Shown here one piece after another: positions 43,735 to 55,277 of a stretch of 64,000 nt of DNA. The notes beneath the pieces are model-generated. The model did no database searches. It was given only the letters and a program-made list of their open reading frames with translations, and was not told the origin of the DNA. The translations under genes and the position numbers were made by a program. The stretch's first letter is position 1. Every line of letters starts with the position of its first letter. The DNA is from Verrucomicrobiaceae bacterium (GTDB lineage Bacteria; Verrucomicrobiota; Verrucomicrobiia; Verrucomicrobiales; Verrucomicrobiaceae): the NCBI GenBank assembly GCA_019694165.1, contig JAIBCL010000021.1, positions 1 to 64,000 of the forward strand. The letters run 5' to 3'.

Positions 43735-45348
43735 GTGCATTCTCATGTCTCCATCGCGAATCGTTCGTGGCTGTTGTCGCGCGCATCAGCCCGAGGTGCA
43801 TTCTCGCTTCTGGAACTGATCACCACCATCGCTGTGGTGGGTGTGCTCGCGGCTGTCGCGGTGCAATTCGCCGGTGATACACCAGTTGCTGTGAAAAACA
43901 CCAAATTGGAGTCGGATGTGGTCCAGTTGAATCAACTCGTGGGCTTGTACATCGCGGATGGCGGCAATTTCACCGGGGTCACCACTCCGCAAGCTGTTCT
44001 CGATCGCCTCAAAAAGGCCAGAACGGTGACCGATGCAAAACAGCATATCGGCATCGCCACCGGCAAGCTGGTGGACGTGCGGTTGAAGGCCAGAATGTCT
44101 TCGGGCACCCTTGGACGGGGAGCAAGGGGCAGAGCGGTCTGGAATGCGACGAAAAACCGCTTTGAGATCACGACGGGCACTGGAAGCGGAGCGGAGGAAT
44201 TCTATCTCGACGAGTCGCTGGCAGGCACGGATTTTGGTACCGAAACGCGAAGCTCGGGGGTTTACAAATTCAATTCCTCAGCCGCCTCGTCCACGTCCTC
44301 GCCCTCCGCCGGATGGATCTGGGGCAACGCTACGAGCAGCTTGATCACCACCAAGTCGCCATCGTATGTCAGCCCGGTCGGAACGGAAACCTATTTCAAT
44401 CCGACTGAACTCACGGGGGGATCAGGAAGTGGCTCGGGCAGCGGCAGTGGCTCAGGCAGCGGCAGTGGCAGCGGATCTGGCAGCGGCAGCGGTGGCGGCA
44501 CACCAACGACTTTGCCCACGCCCGTCATCACGCCGGCAGGGGGGACTTTTGCGAATGCGAGCTTTCCTTCCTCAGTGACAATCACCAGTAATGGCGCACC
44601 CGGTGGCGGACAGTCCCAGCTCCAATACCAAGTCAACGGTGGAGCCTGGGCCAGCTACACCGCTGCCGTGACGATCCAGTCTGCGGACGTCATCACGGCC
44701 AGGAACAAGTCTCTCAACGCCGTTGCCTACGCAGACAGCGCGACGGCTTCTGAAACCTATTACCAGCTGGTGTCTGACTTCACGGGTGGTGGCGTTGGCT
44801 CCTGGGGAAATGTCCAGGGCGGCAGCAATCTCGTGCAAGCCTCTTCGAACGGCGATCCGACCTCCACGCTCAGCCACGGCAACACCAAACTGGACCTGGG
44901 AGGGGGAAACTTCCTCGACGCCGGCGTCGAGAACGTGCTGACGTTCACGAAAACCGACTTCGCAGGAGCTGCGCCGAACACTTGGTTCCAGCTTGGCACC
45001 ATGACCATGTTGAACGGCACCACGTTCTACGACAGCGAGGCATCCGGTGCGACGCTGACCGTCAACCTGAATCTGACGAACCCCGCCTCGACCGGCGTGG
45101 TGCATGTGGACCTCGGTTTCACCAGCACGGAGAATGTGGGCACCGCCCTGGAGAACGCCGACATCGTCGAGCTCAAAAGCCCGGCCACGGATTTCTCCGT
45201 GCAGATTGGCGGCGTCACCTACCGCCTCGAACTCGCCTGGGCCACGCTCGATCCGGGCTCCGGGGTAGTGCAGGGCAACCAGTTCTTGATTTACGAAGGC
45301 GCCACCGCCCGGGCCGAACTCAGAGCCCGCTTTGCGCCCGACCATTGA
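43735..45348 (+). CDS. Multidomain type IV pilin-like protein with Gly-Ser linker and choice-of-anchor K-like domain
   Basis: 537 residues from GTG 43735; no ATG is available in frame nearby. The N-terminus carries a class III prepilin signal, RGA22|FSLLE with Glu at +5, then a hydrophobic helix (LITTIAVVGVLAAVAVQF). Residues 45-215 are a pilin-like globular part. An almost pure Gly-Ser linker spans about 228-254. Next is a chitobiase C-terminal-like beta-sandwich (about 258-345, PVITPAGGTFANASF). The last ~190 residues (SDFTGGGVGSWGNVQGG, ending in LRARF) resemble the choice-of-anchor K type seen in secreted proteins. It is probably the major or tip subunit of the appendage encoded downstream, with the beta-domains displayed as adhesive modules. 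The first gene of the operon, 24 bp before the ATPase. There is no Shine-Dalgarno sequence. Confidence 0.8.
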   Translation: MHSHVSIANRSWLLSRASARGAFSLLELITTIAVVGVLAAVAVQFAGDTPVAVKNTKLESDVVQLNQLVGLYIADGGNFTGVTTPQAVLDRLKKARTVTDAKQHIGIATGKLVDVRLKARMSSGTLGRGARGRAVWNATKNRFEITTGTGSGAEEFYLDESLAGTDFGTETRSSGVYKFNSSAASSTSSPSAGWIWGNATSSLITTKSPSYVSPVGTETYFNPTELTGGSGSGSGSGSGSGSGSGSGSGSGSGGGTPTTLPTPVITPAGGTFANASFPSSVTITSNGAPGGGQSQLQYQVNGGAWASYTAAVTIQSADVITARNKSLNAVAYADSATASETYYQLVSDFTGGGVGSWGNVQGGSNLVQASSNGDPTSTLSHGNTKLDLGGGNFLDAGVENVLTFTKTDFAGAAPNTWFQLGTMTMLNGTTFYDSEASGATLTVNLNLTNPASTGVVHVDLGFTSTENVGTALENADIVELKSPATDFSVQIGGVTYRLELAWATLDPGSGVVQGNQFLIYEGATARAELRARFAPDH

Positions 45349-45372
45349 TCCACACCCAAATACTCCCCCGAT

Positions 45373-46437
45373 ATGGACGACATCAACGAACGCAGCCAGC
45401 TTGGATACCGAATGCTTCACCTGTCGAAGGATTCGAGGGTGAGCGATTTCTACATCACCCCCTGGGAGCAGCTCACCTACCGGCGCAACGGCAAGCTCTA
45501 CTTCGACTCGTTCGTTTACCAGCCCGAGCGACCGATCGAATTCCAGCCGGGCTGCATCGACTATGCACTCAGCCTCGGCAACCGCCGCTACCGTGTGAAC
45601 CGGATGGTGACCCGCGGACGTCCGCGCTGGGTGATGCGTCTGCTGCCGGAGGAAATCCCGGACATCTCGAAGCTCATGGTCCCGCCCGCAGCGATCAAGG
45701 CGTTCCTTGAGGCCAAGAACGGCCTTTTCCTCGTGTGCGGAGCGACTGGCTCCGGCAAGTCAACCACCATCGCTTCGATGATCCTGGAGCGGGCCAAGCG
45801 CCGCCAGGAACACCTGCTCACCTTCGAGGATCCCATTGAATATCTTTATCCCCCGGGACTGCCTTCGCTCGTCTCTCAACGTGAGATCGGCTCTGACGAG
45901 CTGGACTTCGGCAAATCGCTGCGCGCTGCACTTCGTCAAGCTCCCGACGTGATCCTCGTGGGCGAAATTCGTGACGGCGAGACGGCGGAGATCGCCCTTC
46001 AAGCCGCCGAAACCGGCCACGTCGTGGTGGCCACGCTGCACACCTCCTCCGCAGCCCAGACTGTCCAGCGCTACTTGAAGCTCATTCCCAGCGAGCGCAT
46101 CGAAAACGCCACGCTCTCCTTCGCCGATGCCTTCCGCGGCATCCTCTGCCAGCGTCTTCTCTTCGACGAGTCGCGCGGCAAGCGCTTCCCGATCCATGAG
46201 CTGCTTCTGCCTTATGATTCGGTCTGCGGCATGGTGCGCCGCTCGGAGTTCAAGAATCTCGAGCAGGAACTCGAGGCCGGCTTCACCCGCGGCATGCAGA
46301 GCTTTGAACGCTCTCTGCAAAACCGCATCGCCGACGGCTGGAAGCCCACGAACACGCGCAAGACCGGCTTCCAGGAACATGAGGTGTATGACTTCCTTTC
46401 AAAAGAACAACTGACATCTGTATATGCTGTGGGATGA
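45373..46437 (+). CDS. PilT/GspE-family secretion or pilus ATPase (PilT-like)
   Basis: 354 residues, close to the length of PilT (about 345) and far shorter than PilB or GspE. Walker A is GATGSGKST (123-131), the Asp box is TFEDPIEY (150-157), Walker B is ILVGEIRD (194-201) and the His box is TGHVVVATLHT (214-224). An N-terminal PAS-like half (about 10-110) is present, as in PilT. These hexameric ATPases power pilus assembly or retraction from the cytoplasmic face of the platform protein. It is the only ATPase in this operon, so it either powers assembly here or works with a PilB encoded elsewhere. Its end overlaps the next gene by 14 bp, suggesting translational coupling. Confidence 0.92.
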   Translation: MDDINERSQLGYRMLHLSKDSRVSDFYITPWEQLTYRRNGKLYFDSFVYQPERPIEFQPGCIDYALSLGNRRYRVNRMVTRGRPRWVMRLLPEEIPDISKLMVPPAAIKAFLEAKNGLFLVCGATGSGKSTTIASMILERAKRRQEHLLTFEDPIEYLYPPGLPSLVSQREIGSDELDFGKSLRAALRQAPDVILVGEIRDGETAEIALQAAETGHVVVATLHTSSAAQTVQRYLKLIPSERIENATLSFADAFRGILCQRLLFDESRGKRFPIHELLLPYDSVCGMVRRSEFKNLEQELEAGFTRGMQSFERSLQNRIADGWKPTNTRKTGFQEHEVYDFLSKEQLTSVYAVG

Positions 46438-47293
46438 AATCAAAAGTGTGTTGAGTTTCGCCGCGTTCCGACCGGACGCGGATGATCCGGGTATTTCTTG
46501 GAGCAAGCGCTTCGAGAACAGGAAAACCCTGCTGCTGAACATCAGCCGCAATCAGACGAGCTGGCGCGGGTTGGACCGCAAGGGCAAGTTTGAAGAAGGC
46601 GGCATGCAGGAAGGCGAGTTCGCCGACATCGCGCCCCAGCGGGCCGAGGAATGGCGCGCCATGACCGACGGAGGATGGTGCTCCGTGTCGCTGAACAACC
46701 GCTTCATCATCAGCCTGGAAAACAACCTGATGCGTGGTGACAACTGCATGCATCTGCTGCGCACGAACCCCCGCGCGGTCCTCGGACCGAAGTACGACCG
46801 CGGAAAGCGCTACGCACTCTGCCACCACCCCGAGACAACGGCGAGCATGCTCCTGGCATGCGAGGAGGCCTTTGTGAAAGTGTCCGAGGACGTCCTGAAG
46901 ACCATTGGCATGCGCCCCGGCCGCATGTGCTGCGGCCTCTTTGCAATGATGGAGTACGCCATCCACAGCATCTACACCAGCCAGCCTGGAGCCACGCCCG
47001 CGAGCTTCGTCCTCGTCGCCGCGTGCGAGGGATCGGTGGCCGCCCTCGCCCAGCAGGACGGTCAGTGGAAGGACCTGCGCTGCCGCAGCGGCCTGGGCAT
47101 GGAGGCGGTGGAGACCGCGCTCCAAATCATCAGCCCTCTTGTGGCAAAGGCTCCCCCGGGCACTCCAGTGTACTTTATCAGCGACGGTCAGGACCAGAAG
47201 TTCCGCCAGGACCTCATGGCTCAGCTAGAGAAGGTCGGCGCCCGTGACCTCACCCAGGATGACCTGATGTGGCAGGTGATTGGCACCTGCTGA
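46424..47293 (+). CDS. Unrecognised protein in the PilM position of the pilus-like operon
   Basis: 289 residues, no signal peptide or clear membrane segment, so probably cytoplasmic. I do not recognise a family. It lies between the ATPase and a PilN-like gene, exactly where the actin-like PilM is in type IV pilus operons. The secondary-structure pattern (PASFVLVAACEGSVAAL and PVYFISDGQD, both strand-like, with helices between) is compatible with a diverged actin-like or GspL-type cytoplasmic domain, but the phosphate-binding signatures of PilM are not evident. Several Cys residues (MCCGLF, CMHLL, CRSG) are unusual for PilM. The start overlaps the ATPase end. Its role as the inner-membrane platform adaptor is inferred from position only. 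Confidence 0.7.
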   Translation: MLWDEIKSVLSFAAFRPDADDPGISWSKRFENRKTLLLNISRNQTSWRGLDRKGKFEEGGMQEGEFADIAPQRAEEWRAMTDGGWCSVSLNNRFIISLENNLMRGDNCMHLLRTNPRAVLGPKYDRGKRYALCHHPETTASMLLACEEAFVKVSEDVLKTIGMRPGRMCCGLFAMMEYAIHSIYTSQPGATPASFVLVAACEGSVAALAQQDGQWKDLRCRSGLGMEAVETALQIISPLVAKAPPGTPVYFISDGQDQKFRQDLMAQLEKVGARDLTQDDLMWQVIGTC

Positions 47294-47319
47294 AACCCTC
47301 TCCGCAACACCTCGCCACC

Positions 47320-47871
47320 ATGAGCAACTATCTCTGCCACGACTTCAAGACGCCGCGCACCGACACGTCGCGCCGCCTGCCAAACTCATTCCGCATTGTC
47401 CCAGTGATCTTCTACGTCGCCATGGTCGCCGGAGCCTACTTCATCACCATTGACGTCCTCGGCTACCGGGCGGCCAATCGTGACAAGGCCACCTTCAACC
47501 AGATCAAGGCGGATCACAACGCGGAGAAGGCAAAGTATGAAACACAAACCGGCTCGCTCACCGTTGAGACGGCGCGCGCCCAGGAAGTGGCCAAGTGGAT
47601 CGAGGGCACCCGCTCGCTGCAGCCCATCTGCGTGAAAATCAACCGCAGCATCAAGGCGGACGCCAGGCTCGGAGAACTGCTTGTGGAGCGGAATGAACAA
47701 CTGCCCAGCCAGTTCATCCTCTCAATGAAGCTCACCGGCGCCTCCGTCACCGATGTGCAGCAGATTCAGTCAAACATCGAGCAGTTGAACTACCGCGCCT
47801 ACAGCCCTCAGCAATCGAAGCAGGCCGACGTCATCGACTACCGGTCGAACCTCGTCTGGCAGCAGCGTTGA
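47320..47871 (+). CDS. PilN-like inner-membrane alignment protein
   Basis: 183 residues from ATG 47320. An upstream ATG at 47269 would overlap the previous gene and add 17 polar residues; I prefer 47320 because it follows the previous stop and has the CCACC-ATG context of other starts in this operon. A single transmembrane helix (about 26-48, VPVIFYVAMVAGAYFITIDVL) follows a short cytoplasmic tail. Next are a helical or coiled-coil stretch (about 50-95) and a small alpha/beta domain (LPSQFILSMKLTGAS). This is the architecture of PilN/GspL-C-type proteins. The conserved N-terminal INLLP motif by which PilN binds PilM is absent, in keeping with the divergent PilM-position protein. The assignment rests on architecture plus position. 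Confidence 0.65.
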   Translation: MSNYLCHDFKTPRTDTSRRLPNSFRIVPVIFYVAMVAGAYFITIDVLGYRAANRDKATFNQIKADHNAEKAKYETQTGSLTVETARAQEVAKWIEGTRSLQPICVKINRSIKADARLGELLVERNEQLPSQFILSMKLTGASVTDVQQIQSNIEQLNYRAYSPQQSKQADVIDYRSNLVWQQR

Positions 47872-47918
47872 ACCGCCCCGGAACCACAGCCAACCAAACC
47901 TTCAATCCGTCAACCACC

Positions 47919-48485
47919 ATGAATGGCAAACAACTAGCCTGTGTTCTTCTGATGATGCTCATCGGCCTGGTCACCTACGTCGGCCAGATCGTCCATAAGA
48001 AAGCCACCGCCAGCCGCAACGAAGCGAAAGCGGCCGAGGACGCCGCCAAGGCTGCGGAGGACGCGTGCCAGATCGCCAAGATCAAGACCCAGCGTATCGA
48101 CGTGGATTCCGCGGAGATCAGGCGCTTTCTTGAAGCATGGACGCCGAAAATCGACAGCTTCCAAACCGCCCAAGAAGTGGAGGACGCCGTCCAGTCGAGC
48201 ATCCGCGCGGCGAAACTCTACGTGGACTCCCAGAAGTTCGAGGGCAGGTCCCCGAAAGCCGGCTTGGTCGTCGCCAAGACCGTCAAGGCATCCATCATCG
48301 CTGAGGACGAGTACCCCAAGACAATGAACTGGCTTGGCGAACTGGAGAAGAAGCTGCCGCTGGCACGCATCTCCGTATGTAGAATCACCCCGGGCAAGGA
48401 AACCAAGAACATCCGCATGGAGATCTCCCTAGAGGTGCCCATCATCAATCTCAAGGCTGACCCGACCGAGAAGAAGAAGGCCTGA
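47919..48485 (+). CDS. PilO-like inner-membrane alignment protein
   Basis: 188 residues from ATG 47919. The ATG at 47868 overlaps the previous gene by 4 bp and is the alternative; it would put a polar 17-residue tail ahead of the membrane helix. One transmembrane helix (about 5-24, LACVLLMMLIGLVTYVGQIV) is followed by an Ala/Glu/Lys-rich coiled coil (about 28-52, EAKAAEDAAKAAEDA). A periplasmic domain with two similar alpha-beta halves follows, as expected for PilO-type ferredoxin-like folds. PilN and PilO are known to form a heterodimer linking the cytoplasmic machinery to PilP. No motif is decisive; the call depends on size, topology and gene order. Confidence 0.62.
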   Translation: MNGKQLACVLLMMLIGLVTYVGQIVHKKATASRNEAKAAEDAAKAAEDACQIAKIKTQRIDVDSAEIRRFLEAWTPKIDSFQTAQEVEDAVQSSIRAAKLYVDSQKFEGRSPKAGLVVAKTVKASIIAEDEYPKTMNWLGELEKKLPLARISVCRITPGKETKNIRMEISLEVPIINLKADPTEKKKA

Positions 48486-48522
48486 TGCCCTGCCAATCCG
48501 CCATCCCCAAGCGACACACGCC

Positions 48523-49266
48523 ATGAAAAAACTGCTGCTCATCATCTCATTGCTGCCCCTCTGTGCGCCGCTGCCCGGTCGCGCGGTGGAAGAAGAGGGC
48601 GACGACGAGACCAAGGACGGAAAGCCGAAGTACGCTCTAATTCTTCCCGAGGAGAAAGCGCCTGAACTTGTGAAGGCAAACGAACCCTGCCCATACGGCG
48701 GCCTCGTGGACGAGAAGGCCAAGGAAACGGCGTCCGGCGAGGAGGCAAAGGTCAGCGACATGCTGCGGTCCCTGCCTGTCGTCGGCAAATCGTCGCGCAA
48801 CTGCGTGCTGCTCGGCGATATCATCCTGCGCCGCGGCCAGATCGTGCCAGACATCATCCCAAATCAGACGGTGAAGCTCCGGGTCGAAGACATCACTCCG
48901 GACCACGTCCAGCTCACCTGGGTGGAGAAGAAGCCCACCGGCCTGACCCCCCGCACACTCACCATAGCCACTGATGTGTCTCCCGAAGTGAAGCAGCGCC
49001 TGCCAGGAAATCTCGGCGCGGCGTCGAAAGGTGGCGGAGCATCCGCCCCGGTTACCTCCTTCCGCCCCAGAGGCGGACCGGAAGACGGTGCCAAGGCGGC
49101 GCCACGCGCGCAGGCCGTGGCTGAGGAAACACCGCCTTCCGCCGCGTCGGAGCCAGCCAAGCCGGCGAGTGCCGGCAGCGGCCTGCTCAATCTGTTCTTC
49201 GGCAATCAGGTCAAGGAACCGGCCAAGTCCGGCCCGCAAAAAGCTGCGGCGGATGAACAGAAATAA
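48523..49266 (+). CDS. PilP/GspC-like periplasmic protein
   Basis: 247 residues with a cleavable signal peptide (MKKLLLIISLLPLCAPLPGRA, cut near residue 21). The Cys in LPLC does not make a good lipobox. Residues about 90-140 (CVLLGDIILRRGQIVPD, then VKLRVEDITPDHVQLTW) fit the beta-rich homology region shared by PilP and GspC, in which 'LGD...V..G..I......V..I....V.L' is typical. The rest is Pro/Ala/Gly-rich and probably disordered, ending Lys/Gln-rich. PilP and GspC connect the inner-membrane complex to the outer-membrane secretin, so a secretin should exist elsewhere in the genome. It follows the PilO-like gene by 37 bp. Confidence 0.65.
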   Translation: MKKLLLIISLLPLCAPLPGRAVEEEGDDETKDGKPKYALILPEEKAPELVKANEPCPYGGLVDEKAKETASGEEAKVSDMLRSLPVVGKSSRNCVLLGDIILRRGQIVPDIIPNQTVKLRVEDITPDHVQLTWVEKKPTGLTPRTLTIATDVSPEVKQRLPGNLGAASKGGGASAPVTSFRPRGGPEDGAKAAPRAQAVAEETPPSAASEPAKPASAGSGLLNLFFGNQVKEPAKSGPQKAAADEQK

Positions 49267-49270
49267 GGTC

Positions 49271-50236
49271 ATGTCCCCAAGCCACAGGCACAATCGAGGC
49301 TACACCTCCGCCGAGTTGCTGCTCGTGCTCGCCCTCGGTGCCATCGTGATCGGTGGCACCGTCGTGGCTTTTGGCTCCCTCGCAAAGAACCTGCCGCGCG
49401 TCTCTGCGGTGGTGGAAGTGGACCTAGGTTCAAAGCTCAACACCTACTATGGCGCAGGTGCCTCTTCGACGACGAAGCAAACGGTCAACAGCGCCCCGAA
49501 CCAGGGTGCCGTGGGCCTGGCCGAACGGCTCCGGGAGCAGTTCAACACCGATGTCATCAGCGCCACGGCCGTGTACTGCCTGGCACGCGATTCCGCCACG
49601 GCAAACACCTACCACCCCACCTCCATCCCCTACAATCCCTCGACGGATCAAGTGCTCGACACTTCCCAGAAATTTCGCGATCATCTCAGCTCAAAGGGCG
49701 TGTCCGCCACTACGCTCTACGGCAGTGAACGAAATTTCAGTTCCTCAAAATCCGCCGCGACGATCTTCATTCTTGGCTACAGCAAGACGGCCAATGAGCT
49801 GAATGTCATCTCCACCTACGACATCGACGTGGTCAAAGTGACCAAGCCTGACGGCTTCTACGCCTCGGTCCGTCGGTACGTTGGAGCGCCGGTCGTCAAT
49901 GTGAACGAGCCCCAGGGTTACGAGGTGTTTTACCCGCCCTACGACTACAATTCCACCACATGGGCCAATGCTTCCGGCACCACGGACGGGTTCACTCCCA
50001 TATTCGTGGCGTTCGAGAGGTCTGTGCGCGCCTCACTCAGTGAGGGCAGCACCACCGACCGGTTCAAGAAGGCCGCCGAGCGCCCCTTCTACTTCATCTG
50101 GTGGCCGGATCCTGGCGCGGGTGATCTGCGCAAACAGCCCAACTCCTACCCGACCACCGATCCGCGCCAAGCCTACAATCACCAGGGCGGTCGTACCTCC
50201 TTCATGTTCACGGTGCCCATGTTCCCCTCGCTCTGA
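49271..50236 (+). CDS. Type IV pilin/pseudopilin-like minor subunit
   Basis: 321 residues from ATG 49271. An in-frame ATG at 49253 overlaps the previous gene and is the alternative. A prepilin peptidase site is visible, NRG10|YTSAE with Glu at +5, followed by the hydrophobic helix LLLVLALGAIVIGGTVVAFG. The large globular domain (about 40-321) is unlike the small GspH/I/J folds and has no family I recognise; it is Tyr/Ser/Thr-rich (QGYEVFYPPYDYNSTTW). It is probably a minor pseudopilin. It is the first of three consecutive filament-subunit-like genes. Confidence 0.72.
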   Translation: MSPSHRHNRGYTSAELLLVLALGAIVIGGTVVAFGSLAKNLPRVSAVVEVDLGSKLNTYYGAGASSTTKQTVNSAPNQGAVGLAERLREQFNTDVISATAVYCLARDSATANTYHPTSIPYNPSTDQVLDTSQKFRDHLSSKGVSATTLYGSERNFSSSKSAATIFILGYSKTANELNVISTYDIDVVKVTKPDGFYASVRRYVGAPVVNVNEPQGYEVFYPPYDYNSTTWANASGTTDGFTPIFVAFERSVRASLSEGSTTDRFKKAAERPFYFIWWPDPGAGDLRKQPNSYPTTDPRQAYNHQGGRTSFMFTVPMFPSL

Positions 50237-50239
50237 TCC

Positions 50240-51832
50240 ATGAACATTCGACCTCCATCTCCCCGGCGGCCCTCCGGTGCCATCATGATCTTCGCCCTGA
50301 TGATGATGGTCGTGGCGGCGCTGTTCATCTCGGGCACGGCCACGATCATGTCGAACCGTGCGATGGAGACCAGCTACCTGGAAGTGTCCATGAAACGCCG
50401 CCTGGCGTTGGAAAACTCAAAGGCGTTCAACCAGCAGTTCATGCTCGAGCGGACTTTCAACTACTCCAGCACGGTCACCCCCCTCGTCACCGGCGTCTTT
50501 AACAATGATTGGGGCGGCGTGAACACCGACACAGGATGGACAAACCTGCACACTTTCGCCTCCACTTCCCTGCCCGCCACACTAACCACCGTATATCCGT
50601 ACAATTACACAGGCTTCCGCCCTTCGGCGAGCTACCTCGCCACGAAGCAGACCATCCGACCCGCCGCCCTGCCGGACATGGATGCCTTCACTGCCTACGC
50701 TTTTCTAAAGACCTATACGCCCGCCCTCGGCGGCGACTCCCTCGTCGTTTACCGCAAGCCCACCGGAGCCACCGACCAGATCGAACTCGGTGACAAGGGC
50801 GCGGGCCTCAGCATCACCGTCGAGGGCCGGGCCGTGATCCGCGATCCTGATTCCTTCTTCGCCCCGAGCACAGCAAATCCGTTCGAGCTGCCCCTCCGCA
50901 CCGACAGCCTCTACATTCAGAAGCACAACCCGACTCGGAAGCTCTACTGCAAGGACATCGCACTCGGCGGCGAGGACACCCCTCCCTCCAACCTGCCAGC
51001 CGCACGCTCAACCACCGGCCCCACGCCTGAGACCACGACCCCCGAGAGCCTTTACGATGGCACTCTCAACGTCATCAACAACCCCTCAAACACCGACAAC
51101 TCCTTGTGGGATTTCATGGCCAGGGAAAAAGCCGCAGGCACCGGCGACTTCGTCACCATCAGCAGCAACGCCGCCACCGGCACCGCCTCCGACCCTTGGT
51201 GGATCGTGAGCTACAACACCTCCGACCGCGCGCACGATCCGCCCTACCCGCCTCCCGCTTATCCCAGTGGTTACGGCGCGTCCTACAACGTCCTCTATAT
51301 CACCTTGAACCACCCGAACCTGACGCACATGCGCATCCTCGGCGTGGTGGACCAGATCGTCCTCGTCGGCCAGACCGGCGCCGCCTACAGCGCCGCCGCG
51401 ACGCTTCCGCCCGTCATCATCACCGCCGTTCCCAACGGCCTGAGTCCGAACTCCTTCATCAACCTCCAGTGCGTGAACGAAAACAACCGCCGCCTCGTGC
51501 TCGGCGTCCAGGACTCCAACCACGCCACCCTCGACATGTACTGGGGATCGGGATCCTTCGCAGGCACCACCTGGATCAACTGGCGCATGGTCCTCATCAA
51601 CGAATATCGGACCATCTGGGCAAACCTTCCCTCCACCGTCACCCGGAAGGTAAAAATCAAAGGCGGTGTGATGACCAACTGGTCCTTCAAGCGCCGCGGT
51701 CCCGGCACCGCCTCGCGGCTTACACTCTCGCCCGACTATGATCCCGAGCCGACGGGTGCCACGGGGTCGCGCTTCACCTCCCTCCTTCCGCGCGATGGCT
51801 GGATGGAGAACTACTTCCTTCCCACCAGATGA
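50240..51832 (+). CDS. PilX/GspK-like minor pilin or pilus-assembly protein
   Basis: 530 residues. The N-terminus (PRRPSGAIMIFALMMMVVAALFISGTATIM, broken here as SGAIMIFALMM and VVAALFISGTATIM) is a short basic segment followed by a hydrophobic helix (about 13-37). It lacks the Glu+5, as is usual for PilX- and GspK-type subunits. The ~490-residue exported part is Thr/Ser/Pro/Asn-rich with no recognised domain. It starts 3 bp after the preceding pseudopilin and its stop overlaps the next start (ATGA), so the three subunits are tightly coupled. GspK-like proteins cap the tip of the pseudopilus; that role is inferred. Confidence 0.65.
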   Translation: MNIRPPSPRRPSGAIMIFALMMMVVAALFISGTATIMSNRAMETSYLEVSMKRRLALENSKAFNQQFMLERTFNYSSTVTPLVTGVFNNDWGGVNTDTGWTNLHTFASTSLPATLTTVYPYNYTGFRPSASYLATKQTIRPAALPDMDAFTAYAFLKTYTPALGGDSLVVYRKPTGATDQIELGDKGAGLSITVEGRAVIRDPDSFFAPSTANPFELPLRTDSLYIQKHNPTRKLYCKDIALGGEDTPPSNLPAARSTTGPTPETTTPESLYDGTLNVINNPSNTDNSLWDFMAREKAAGTGDFVTISSNAATGTASDPWWIVSYNTSDRAHDPPYPPPAYPSGYGASYNVLYITLNHPNLTHMRILGVVDQIVLVGQTGAAYSAAATLPPVIITAVPNGLSPNSFINLQCVNENNRRLVLGVQDSNHATLDMYWGSGSFAGTTWINWRMVLINEYRTIWANLPSTVTRKVKIKGGVMTNWSFKRRGPGTASRLTLSPDYDPEPTGATGSRFTSLLPRDGWMENYFLPTR

Positions 51833-52260
51833 AACTCACTTCGACCAGAAACGCCAGGAACCGTGGCTACACGCTGATGGAAGTAGTGGCCTCCGCCGCC
51901 GTCCTTGCCGTCGGCATGGCGGGAGCCGTCTCGCTCTCCGCCAGCCTGATGGTCCAGCAGGAAATGAGCTGGCGCGTGGCCGTGGCCCGGAACTACCAGG
52001 AGAACATCGCCCGCCTCTGGCAACTCGGCCTCACACCCGGCGAGGTCATGTCCTTGATCCCCTCGGCGTCCGGCAATCCAAAGCTCTCCGAAGTCGTCGG
52101 TGCCAGCCCCACCCTCATCGCCACCGGACAGGTAAATGTATCCTCCCTCGGCGTGATGGACGAGGCCGTATGCAATTTCACCGTCAACACGGCCAATGTC
52201 ACCGGCGCCGGCGCCGGCGGCACAAATCAAGTCACCATCTACCGCCCCACACTGAAATAA
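51829..52260 (+). CDS. PilV/GspI-like type IV pseudopilin
   Basis: 143 residues. There is a clear prepilin signal, NRG13|YTLME with Glu at +5, followed by the helix VVASAAVLAVGMAGAVSLSASLM. The small C-terminal domain (about 45-143) ends in a Gly/Ala-rich turn and the strand NQVTIYRPTLK. Size and motif fit PilV- or GspI-type minor pseudopilins, which initiate the filament. It begins at the ATG overlapping the stop of the PilX-like gene and ends 15 bp before the PilC-like gene. Confidence 0.82.
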   Translation: MKLTSTRNARNRGYTLMEVVASAAVLAVGMAGAVSLSASLMVQQEMSWRVAVARNYQENIARLWQLGLTPGEVMSLIPSASGNPKLSEVVGASPTLIATGQVNVSSLGVMDEAVCNFTVNTANVTGAGAGGTNQVTIYRPTLK

Positions 52261-52275
52261 CCCCCCTCGACCGCC

Positions 52276-53508
52276 ATGCTCAAGAAAGTCAAGGTCACCA
52301 ACATCAACACCGGTGCCAGCTGCCTCCAGCTCATCGACACCGACACCCACGAAAAAGCCCTCATCGGCTGCGGGCTGGCGCCCAATGAGACCGCCGTCAT
52401 CGAGGACGTCACCGGCCTCGACGAGAAAATCCAGCGCATGAGTTCCCCGAAACCCACGGTGGACGACCGCGCGCAGTTCTTCTCCGGCCTCGGCCGCTGT
52501 CTGGAAAGAAACATCGGCCTCATCAAGAGCCTTCAGTTGCAGACGAACCGGGTGAAGTCGCCCAAGTACAAAGGTCTCATCGCCGACCTCATCTCCAGCC
52601 TCTCCATGGGCGAGAAGCTCAGCGAGGCCATGGCGAAACACCCTTCCGAATTCCCCGACGAAATCCTCTCGCTGGTCATCGCCGGCGAAGAGGCCGGCCA
52701 GTTGGCCCGTGTGTGCCGTCGGATCGGCACCTCGCAAAAGAAAGCCGGAAAAATCATCAAGAAGCTCAAAGGCGGGCTGATCTACCCGGCCGTCGTCATC
52801 GTGCTCTCCATCGTGGTGGTCATCGTCATGAGCTTCACGCTCGTCCCCGCGATGGCCCGGCTCTTCAAGAGTTTCAAGACCGATCTGCCGTTGGGCACCA
52901 AGGCGCTCATGTGGCTCTCGGATCTCTTCATGCACCAGCCCCACATGGCCGCCCTGCCTTTCGTCGGCCTCTACATCTTCTTCTCGAACTGGGGCCGCAT
53001 CAGCAGCACCCGTTTCGTGCAAGACCTCTCGATCAAGCTGCCTGTCATCGGCGTCATCGTGCGCAAGTCGGCCGCCACCGTAGGTTTCCGCACCCTCGCC
53101 ATGCTCGTGGATTCCAATGTCCGCCTCACCAGCGCGTTGGAGATCACCGCGAAGGCAACCTGGCACTACCACTACAAGCAGCTCTTCAGCCGCCTGCGCG
53201 ATCACATCTCCGTCGGCAGAAACCTCCACGAGGCCTTCCTCATGGAGTCCCACTGGCTAGGCCCGGACGGGCGCAACATCTGCGGCCTCATCGAACTGGC
53301 CGCCGAAACCGGCACCGGCACCGAGATGCTCACCGAGATCGCCGATGACTACGAAGAAGAACTCGACCAGATAGCCGGCCAGATGGACAAGCTCATCGAA
53401 CCCCTCACGATGATGATCCTCGGCGTCATGGTCGGCTTCCTCATCTACGCCATCTACGGCCCGATCTTCAGCCTCGGCGACACCATCCTGCCGAAGTCGA
53501 AACATTGA
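52276..53508 (+). CDS. PilC/GspF-family inner-membrane platform protein
   Basis: 410 residues. After an unusual extra N-terminal ~60 residues (MLKKVKVTNINTGASC) come two T2SSF-type helical domains: about 65-165 (FFSGLGRCLERNIGLIKSL, IAGEEAGQLARVC) and about 270-375 (FRTLAMLVDSNVRLTSALEI, LIELAAETGTG). Transmembrane helices lie at about 168-192, 228-245 and 380-402. The ETGT and GEEAGQL signatures are characteristic of the family. The protein is the membrane platform on which the ATPase acts. It is the last gene of the operon; an inverted repeat follows within 2 bp of the stop. Confidence 0.93.
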   Translation: MLKKVKVTNINTGASCLQLIDTDTHEKALIGCGLAPNETAVIEDVTGLDEKIQRMSSPKPTVDDRAQFFSGLGRCLERNIGLIKSLQLQTNRVKSPKYKGLIADLISSLSMGEKLSEAMAKHPSEFPDEILSLVIAGEEAGQLARVCRRIGTSQKKAGKIIKKLKGGLIYPAVVIVLSIVVVIVMSFTLVPAMARLFKSFKTDLPLGTKALMWLSDLFMHQPHMAALPFVGLYIFFSNWGRISSTRFVQDLSIKLPVIGVIVRKSAATVGFRTLAMLVDSNVRLTSALEITAKATWHYHYKQLFSRLRDHISVGRNLHEAFLMESHWLGPDGRNICGLIELAAETGTGTEMLTEIADDYEEELDQIAGQMDKLIEPLTMMILGVMVGFLIYAIYGPIFSLGDTILPKSKH

Positions 53509-53625: not shown

Positions 53626-53848
53626 GCTCTGCTCGGGGATCTCAAGGACCAGATGTTTCTGCGGCTTCGCCACGGTTCACGGCCGTCTCGCGGTGACGGA
53701 TTCACTCCTGCTGATCCACGAAGGCTGCGGATTGGTCGTCATCAACAGTCCGCGGGCCTCCATGAATTCGCAGGAGGTTTCACCGCACCCTGCGGACTCA
53801 CAATTCAAGGCATGGCACCGCCGAGTGCCCGGCGAGGGCGGGCCAAAG

Positions 53849-53930
53849 TGCCGGAGACAGGACTCGAACCTGCACTCGTTTCCAAACCAGATCCTAAGTC
53901 TGGCGCGTCTGCCAATTCCGCCACTCCGGC
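53849..53930 (-). tRNA. tRNA-Leu (anticodon UAG)
   Basis: The minus strand folds as a class II tRNA. Acceptor arms GCCGGAG and CTCCGGC pair perfectly with discriminator A. The D-arm is present (TGGCGGAATTGGCAGACGC), and the anticodon stem CCAGA/TCTGG encloses loop CTTAGGA with anticodon TAG. A variable arm and the T-loop TTCGAGTC follow. It reads CUN leucine codons, CUA in particular. The 3' CCA is not encoded. It lies 30 bp downstream of the CPBP protease gene on the same strand. Confidence 0.96.
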
Positions 53931-53960: not shown

Positions 53961-54950
53961 TCACCGGCCCGCAACGGCTTTCTCCTCCGCAACCCGGCGG
54001 CGATGGCACACGATGAGCAGCGCGGTGATGCCGGTGAGCATCACGGCGGCCACCGGCACGATGCCGACGATGGGGCTGACGATGGAACGGCATGTGTTGC
54101 GGATCATCCACGGCGCGAGTTCGTTTTCGTTGATGCGCCGCGTGACGAGCACGATCTGGCCGAAGTACTTCATGCCCGCCACCCAGCCGGCGTGGATGCC
54201 GATGCCCAGCCACAGGCCGCCCGACATCTGCCGCGCGCGTCCGAGCACCCAGCCGACGGCGACGAGCATGATGAACTCGCCGATGAAGTGGTTCCACTGG
54301 CCGAACCCGCGGAACAATTCCGGGATGACGACGAATCCGGAGGTCCATGTGACTTGATCCGCCGGGATGAAACCCGGGACCGGCGGCTTGAGGAAATGCA
54401 GCAGCGCGAATATGCCGGTGGTCCACCACAGAGCGCGCCGCGCACCGACCGAGTGCGTGAGAATGCCAAGCAGGCCGCCCCTGAAGAGCATCTCCTCCAG
54501 AGTGCCGACGGTGAAGCCGGACGCGAGCGGCTTGGCGATGGCAGTCCACGCGGGATCAGGCTTCAACTTGCTGGCGTGCGCCGCAAAGCAGACGAGTCCC
54601 ATGACGATGATCCCTGCCAGCGCGACGAGGAACCCGAGCACGAGCTGGCACCCCCCTCTGGCCGCGCCCAGGCCGCCCGACAACTCCCGCCATCTGAGAT
54701 GAAGTGAACGCAGCAACGGAACGAGTCCGACGAATGCGGCAAGCATGGCCACGCGATTGAAGTAGCCGGGAAACTCGCTGCCGGAGAGCACCGCGCTCAT
54801 GGCGGAGCCCGGGTGGCTTTGAATGAACCACAGCACCACGAAGAAAACTGGCGGTGAAAAGATCGCGGCCACGAGCAACACACCGCCGAGGAAGACGGTG
54901 AGCAGGACGGGGGTCCGGTGATCTGCTTTGCGTGGTTGCATGTCGCACAT
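53961..54950 (-). CDS. CPBP-family intramembrane metalloprotease (Abi/CAAX-like)
   Basis: 329 residues from ATG 54950; ATG 54941 (three residues shorter) is about as good, and an upstream ATG at 55013 would run into the divergent gene. Multiple transmembrane helices are visible, starting with PVLLTVFLGGVLLVAAIF. The CPBP motifs are present: TLEEMLFRGG (about 150-160, the EExxxR pair), FALLHF (about 180-188) and GIHAGW (about 248-253). Family members are membrane proteases related to Rce1; roles include bacteriocin self-immunity and protein maturation. The substrate here is unknown. It is divergent from the small gene at 54984, with only about 35 bp between them. Confidence 0.85.
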   Translation of the reverse strand: MCDMQPRKADHRTPVLLTVFLGGVLLVAAIFSPPVFFVVLWFIQSHPGSAMSAVLSGSEFPGYFNRVAMLAAFVGLVPLLRSLHLRWRELSGGLGAARGGCQLVLGFLVALAGIIVMGLVCFAAHASKLKPDPAWTAIAKPLASGFTVGTLEEMLFRGGLLGILTHSVGARRALWWTTGIFALLHFLKPPVPGFIPADQVTWTSGFVVIPELFRGFGQWNHFIGEFIMLVAVGWVLGRARQMSGGLWLGIGIHAGWVAGMKYFGQIVLVTRRINENELAPWMIRNTCRSIVSPIVGIVPVAAVMLTGITALLIVCHRRRVAEEKAVAGR

Positions 54951-54983
54951 TGCAAAGCATCCTCGCGGCGCAACCCGAAAGAC

Positions 54984-55277
54984 ATGACGAAGAACCAGGT
55001 TCACGAATGGCACGAGCGCGATGACGAGAGCGGGCGGAAACGCTACTTCCGCGGCTACTGGAACTCGCGCGAGTGGACTTTCGCGGTGCTCGATCCGGGT
55101 GCGCTCGACTGGGAGCGCGTGGATAAGCCGGGAGTCGGAATCTGGCTGGCACTGCGCGATGTGCTCTGGCGCAAATACCAGCGGAGGCGCGTGCCTTTCA
55201 AGTTCGTCGAGCGCGTGGATGCGGTGCTGGAGGAGATGGGAGTGCCGGTGCCGGGCACGGAAGCAGCGGAAGAGTGA
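54984..55277 (+). CDS. Small conserved-looking hypothetical protein
   Basis: 97 residues from ATG 54984. The protein is soluble, strongly charged and Trp-rich (EWHERDDESGRKRYFRGYWNSREW, shown here only as the segments EWHERDDESG and YFRGYWNSREW), ending Glu-rich. I do not recognise the family. Codon use is GC-rich at third positions and like its neighbours, which supports coding. It is convergent with the TPM gene, separated by an inverted repeat. A longer frame from GTG 54918 would overlap the divergent CPBP start and is less likely. Confidence 0.6.
   Translation: MTKNQVHEWHERDDESGRKRYFRGYWNSREWTFAVLDPGALDWERVDKPGVGIWLALRDVLWRKYQRRRVPFKFVERVDAVLEEMGVPVPGTEAAEE

Follow-up and report, generated by a model that had tools for sequence, protein, structure and literature searches.

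The locus at positions 43735 to 53508 of the window (the whole stretch of DNA that was analysed, 64,000 nucleotides from a Verrucomicrobiaceae bacterium) raises the question of whether its ten genes form a machine of their own or are part of a larger machine of a known type. In the preliminary description, made from the sequence of the window, a type IV filament locus with a pilin-to-PilC gene order was recognised, and a lineage-specific, possibly undescribed appendage or secretion system was proposed, equipped with a single PilT-like ATPase of retraction-type size.

The assignment to the type IV filaments was confirmed by our analysis. Specifically, ten ORFs on the same strand, separated by short gaps or overlapping, include a PilT/PilU-family gene, a PilC gene and genes with prepilin motifs (Table 1). 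For genes 4 and 7 the preferred starts are the ATG codons at 47320 and 49253, respectively, while for gene 5 the ATG at 47919 was preferred because homologues align from there. On the minus strand, an ORF at 53961-55013, which by eye may encode a CPBP-type intramembrane protease, overlaps the far side of a tRNA-Leu region (53848-53930).

Table 1. The ten genes of the locus and the related parts encoded elsewhere in the same genome. C50, C61 and C22 are other contigs.
Feature	Position	Strand	Assignment and basis
Gene 1	43735..45348	+	Modular type IV pilin: prepilin signal, pilin-like region, Ser/Gly linker, C-terminal choice-of-anchor K
Gene 2	45373..46437	+	PilT/PilU-family ATPase, proposed retraction motor
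Gene 3	46424..47293	+	PilM/GspL-type actin-like cytoplasmic protein, as predicted by AlphaFold2, Foldseek and VIA
Gene 4	47320..47871	+	PilN-position inner-membrane protein (order and topology)
Gene 5	47919..48485	+	PilO-position inner-membrane protein (order and topology)
Gene 6	48523..49266	+	PilP/GspC-like periplasmic protein; predicted HR-domain-like core, residues 68-150
Gene 7	49253..50236	+	Minor pseudopilin, GspJ/PilW-like position; RG/YTSAE signal by eye, order conserved
Gene 8	50240..51832	+	Large minor pseudopilin without Glu5, GspK/PilX-like position; motif by eye, order conserved
Gene 9	51829..52260	+	Minor pseudopilin, GspI/PilV-like position; RG/YTLME signal, PF07963 25.2 bits (over cut-off)
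Gene 10	52276..53508	+	PilC/GspF inner-membrane platform
PilB block	C50:62239-70070		
psD-psG	C50, about 62239 to 64666		Small pilins
PilB-type ATPase	C50:64709-66871		PF00437 331 bits
Response regulator	C50:66847-67431		Follows PilB
Hybrid histidine kinase	C50:67428-70070		Follows the response regulator
Secretin orthologue	C61:24929-26923		PF00263 117.8 bits
A24 prepilin peptidase	C22		PF01478 over cut-off; the single one in the genome

The product of gene 2 matched PilT structures in the PDB with an E value of 1e-54 and scored 272 bits against TIGR01420, under the curated PilT cut-off of 319. In the ATPase tree it fell in the PilT/PilU clade, together with YggR of E. coli and the PilTs encoded in the same genome (support 100/100); this placement, which agrees with the retraction-type size noted earlier, counted against a novel machine. 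Three motor motifs are intact, namely Walker A (GATGSGKS), GEIRD and TLHT. Changes were seen in the region that corresponds to AIRNLIRE, and retraction by gene 2 is uncertain for this reason. HMM scores led to the rejection of a T4SS ATPase and of a Tad ATPase of the TadA/CpaF type (48.8 bits for TIGR03819, compared with 272 for PilT). Besides gene 2, the same genome carries two tandem pairs of PilT/PilU-like ATPases, at L173:8871-11027 (contig C31) and L174:10108-12357 (contig C32).

Gene 10 showed two stretches of PF00482 (129.9 bits) and scored 204 bits with HofC, 181 with GspF and 178 with PilC. For gene 9, assignment to a Verru_Chthon cassette protein was discarded, as TIGR02599 gave just 10 bits.

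Searches of Pfam, PHROGs and PDB sequences returned no significant family match for genes 3 to 8, in keeping with the earlier view that the alignment proteins (genes 3 to 6) are very divergent. Since six of the ten genes are in this condition, annotation largely misses the system. The PilM-position protein had been called unrecognisable, a judgement that did not survive structure prediction. Specifically, an AlphaFold2 model of gene 3, built with 18 homologues (pLDDT 88), gave as best Foldseek matches the EpsL cytoplasmic domain (1yf5, 4.7e-12) and PilM (5eou, 7.3e-12), that is, E values of about 1e-11; the VIA Z scores were 12.8 and 12.7, a level that an actin-like protein of Bacteroides equalled and FtsA approached. 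The model comprises a single actin-like domain up to residue 289, a periplasmic part is lacking, and gene 4 is separate. On this model, gene 3 encodes a PilM/GspL-type actin-like protein, the fold being common to PilM, GspL and FtsA, and its arrangement is that of PilM, because a separate single-domain protein is followed by a separate N gene.

In the AlphaFold2 model of gene 6, residues 68-150 form a core with pLDDT above 90. The top eight VIA rows obtained with it were all HR domains of GspC, PilP or GspB (Z 6.0 to 4.7), some of them parts of larger pilus models, and unrelated rows began at 4.4, while Foldseek alone gave no significant match for this core. The predicted core therefore has a modest resemblance to the HR domains of PilP/GspC. 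Pfam and PDB sequence searches gave no meaningful match for genes 4 and 5, which from gene order and topology would be PilN and PilO; in gene 4, a conserved N-terminal segment precedes a single hydrophobic stretch.

The preliminary description had also reported the lack of a secretin, a PilB and a prepilin peptidase. This is correct for the window but not for the genome, in which a search for the secretin genes yielded an orthologue on C61 and in which a PilB-type ATPase and a prepilin peptidase are encoded on C50 and C22 (Table 1). A separate, ordinary T4P PilB lies on contig C44.

The relationship between these loci emerges from the gene order in relatives. The nine-gene order from pilT to pilC was kept in 53 of the 56 testable loci, the other three being without minor pseudopilins. 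A search of other Verrucomicrobiota had been suggested earlier, and the proposal of a lineage-specific system was borne out. Judged on the translated sequences, conservation of the order at the amino-acid level is far beyond chance. In six genomes (G012, G013, G048, G050, G053 and G056), which are outgroup or near relatives, the genes past PilC are psD, psE, psF and usually psG, followed by a PilB-type ATPase of 720-750 aa; a response regulator comes next in four of them (G012, G013, G048, G053), and in three (G012, G013, G048) there is a hybrid histidine kinase as well. A divergent secretin gene was located upstream of gene 1 or pilT in 47 of the 54 testable loci, and in a genome of the same genus (G001) it stands directly upstream of the cluster. 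The outgroup operon can be written as secretin (divergent), pilin1, pilT, M, N, O, P, psA-C, pilC, psD-G and pilB, then the response regulator and histidine kinase where present. At L133, L140 and L163 a compact operon passes from the P gene to pilC with none of the minor pseudopilins of genes 7-9, and in G044 the PilB-type ATPase gene (C75:70560-72629) carries one in-frame TGA.

The same parts are also present and absent together. Among 57 related genomes, 49 were classed as good (completeness of 90% or more, contamination of 5% or less). In 33 of these 49, and in the same 33 each time, the products of gene 2 (PilT) and gene 3 (PilM position) and the PilB of C50 were found. Across all 57, the calls for the PilM-position protein and PilB differ only in G015 and G022, both less than 90% complete. 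The distribution of the secretin agrees with this, the exceptions being G015, G029, where a copy lies at a contig edge, and G030, where a short remnant is left. The C44-type PilB of ordinary T4P, taken as a control, was present in 57 of 57 genomes. Where the system was lost within the family (G003, G007, G031), all tested parts are gone together, and it was not found in the genomes of genus g12. In G030, a 254-aa frame (C6:296806-297309) contains no more of the secretin than its C-terminal part, and PilM, PilT and PilB were not found; this fragment is apparently a remnant after loss of the system.

A genome scan with the PilM profile gave 99 loci, 80 of which were kept, all with Verrucomicrobia titles (Prosthecobacter, Brevifollis and Verrucomicrobium among them); a small number of MAGs bear the title Akkermansia or Chthoniobacter, perhaps by mislabelling. 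In a phylum-wide sample with the same profile, at least 7 of 387 genomes were positive when at most six candidates of each were scored; six belong to the family of the window and one to another family of the same class. The genome of the window is most like Prosthecobacter, and the gene 3 product is 84% identical to its counterpart in a P. debontii MAG.

All together, we consider it likely that the ten genes are half of a T4aP-like pilus machine of the Verrucomicrobiales, able to extend and to retract. On the best reading, the complete system comprises about eighteen genes and is specific to this order. It would be a divergent branch of a known machine rather than a new kind, because the extension motor, the outer-membrane gate and the likely main pilin are encoded elsewhere in the genome. 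Once the parts linked in relatives are counted, the component set is largely that of a T4aP, beside an ordinary T4P present throughout, and the idea of a separate new machine gave way. Contig breaks alone do not account for the split, because the three loci lie deep inside contigs C25, C50 and C61 of this draft genome. With T4aP the system has in common the PilB- and PilT-type ATPases, the PilC platform, the secretin, the minor pilin set and a peptidase encoded apart, as well as a PilM-type actin-like protein followed by the N, O and P positions. It differs in that N, O and P are unrecognisable by sequence, the ATPases and secretin fall below curated cut-offs, PilT is placed within the assembly operon beside a modular pilin, a hybrid kinase is linked and the loci are split.

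A type II secretion-like machine, in which the pilins would form a short pseudopilus for driving folded proteins out by way of the secretin, with the PilT homologue as an accessory, appears improbable to us. The set of minor pseudopilins in genes 7-9 would suit it, and the C50 ATPase scored slightly nearer to GspE (396 bits) than to PilB (384 bits, under the PilB equivalog cut-off), as did the C61 secretin to GspD (137.7 bits) compared with PilQ (123.7), both under the curated family cut-offs. In the tree, the C50 ATPase joined PilB/GspE with support of 100/100, with long branches inside this group, so that T4aP and T2SS are not separated by the tree. However, a dedicated PilT-family ATPase belongs to the core operon of the examined copies, and T2SS are not known to have a retraction ATPase of this family. 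In addition, the PilM and PilN positions are taken by two genes and not by a fused GspL, the operon includes a modular pilin, and further GspE/GspF loci occur in this genome, on C37, C10 and C26.

DNA uptake is a common role of T4aP-like machines with PilT, and a competence pilus of this type, with gene 1 serving for DNA capture, might be envisaged on this basis. We regard it as very unlikely, since the conserved neighbourhood holds no further shared gene that looks like a com gene, and the gene 1 module varies among relatives, as would rather be expected of a binding head for varying surfaces. Finally, a distinct ten-gene machine working with one PilT-like ATPase and no secretin or PilB of its own, as the absence of both from the locus had suggested, is hardly credible and was rejected, given that orthologues on C50 and C61 are linked to the locus in relatives and share its pattern of presence and absence.

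For the T4aP-like pilus machine the following working is proposed. The single A24 peptidase would trim the prepilins, and the PilB-type ATPase of C50 would polymerise the small pilins encoded next to it on the PilC platform, psD being the likely major pilin. The minor pseudopilins of genes 7-9 would start the pilus, which would carry the gene 1 product, probably at its tip. Proteins of the PilM, N, O and P types, N and O being placed by order, would couple motors and platform to the C61 secretin, while the gene 2 motor would, judging from its family, retract the pilus. Control of the pilus probably falls to the response regulator and the hybrid kinase that are linked to these genes. In Prosthecobacter-like genomes, an ancestral operon would have been broken into separate loci.

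Adhesion would be the main role of this pilus. The main reason for proposing it is that gene 1 encodes a modular pilin, and such pilins, established as T4P adhesins, are a known means of equipping type IV pili with a binding head (PMC8179133). Gene 1 scored over the cut-off of TIGR02532, and its residues 351-527 matched choice-of-anchor K (NF038131, 77.8 bits); it is probably the tip adhesin, with a surface-binding head at the pilus tip. As in the modular pilins PilB and PilC of Streptococcus sanguinis, a functional module is grafted onto a pilin; theirs has a role in adhesion (PMC8179133), whereas that of gene 1 and its homologues is a choice-of-anchor K or beta-propeller module, a putative binding head. 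The MSH pilus, adhesive, derived from T4aP and without its own peptidase (PMC6668835), is similar to the system described here, which differs by its dedicated PilT. The T4P of the Akkermansia Amuc_1098 type likewise belongs to the Verrucomicrobiota and has a secretin family of its own (PMC4960237); the secretin of our system is distant from that family, scoring 80 bits where the cut-off is 750.

No description of the system was found in the literature searched, which took in few subscription papers, in line with the earlier suggestion that it may be undescribed. More tentatively, and with less than even confidence, it might represent a distinct dynamic pilus class in the Verrucomicrobiales, in which the alignment subcomplex is particular to the class, tip heads can be exchanged and a sensor system is dedicated to the machine; such a pilus may build the fimbriae reported at the prostheca tips of Verrucomicrobium spinosum (PMC12283558). 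The link of a window-type system to these fimbriae is speculation, testable through the targeted mutagenesis that now exists for V. spinosum (PMC12283558). The parts of a Verrucomicrobiales pilus system are now listed almost in full, and the case illustrates how linked operons and co-occurrence can supply what a seemingly incomplete locus lacks.

With regard to variation in gene 1, choice-of-anchor K was found in 30 of 35 homologues and delta-60/DUF5122 beta-propeller repeats in 3 of 35, the C-terminal module being exchanged while the operon position stays fixed. Versions of 1300-1800 aa were observed at L167:4914-8834, L169:4926-8846, L170:3793-7758 and L129:3504-8918.
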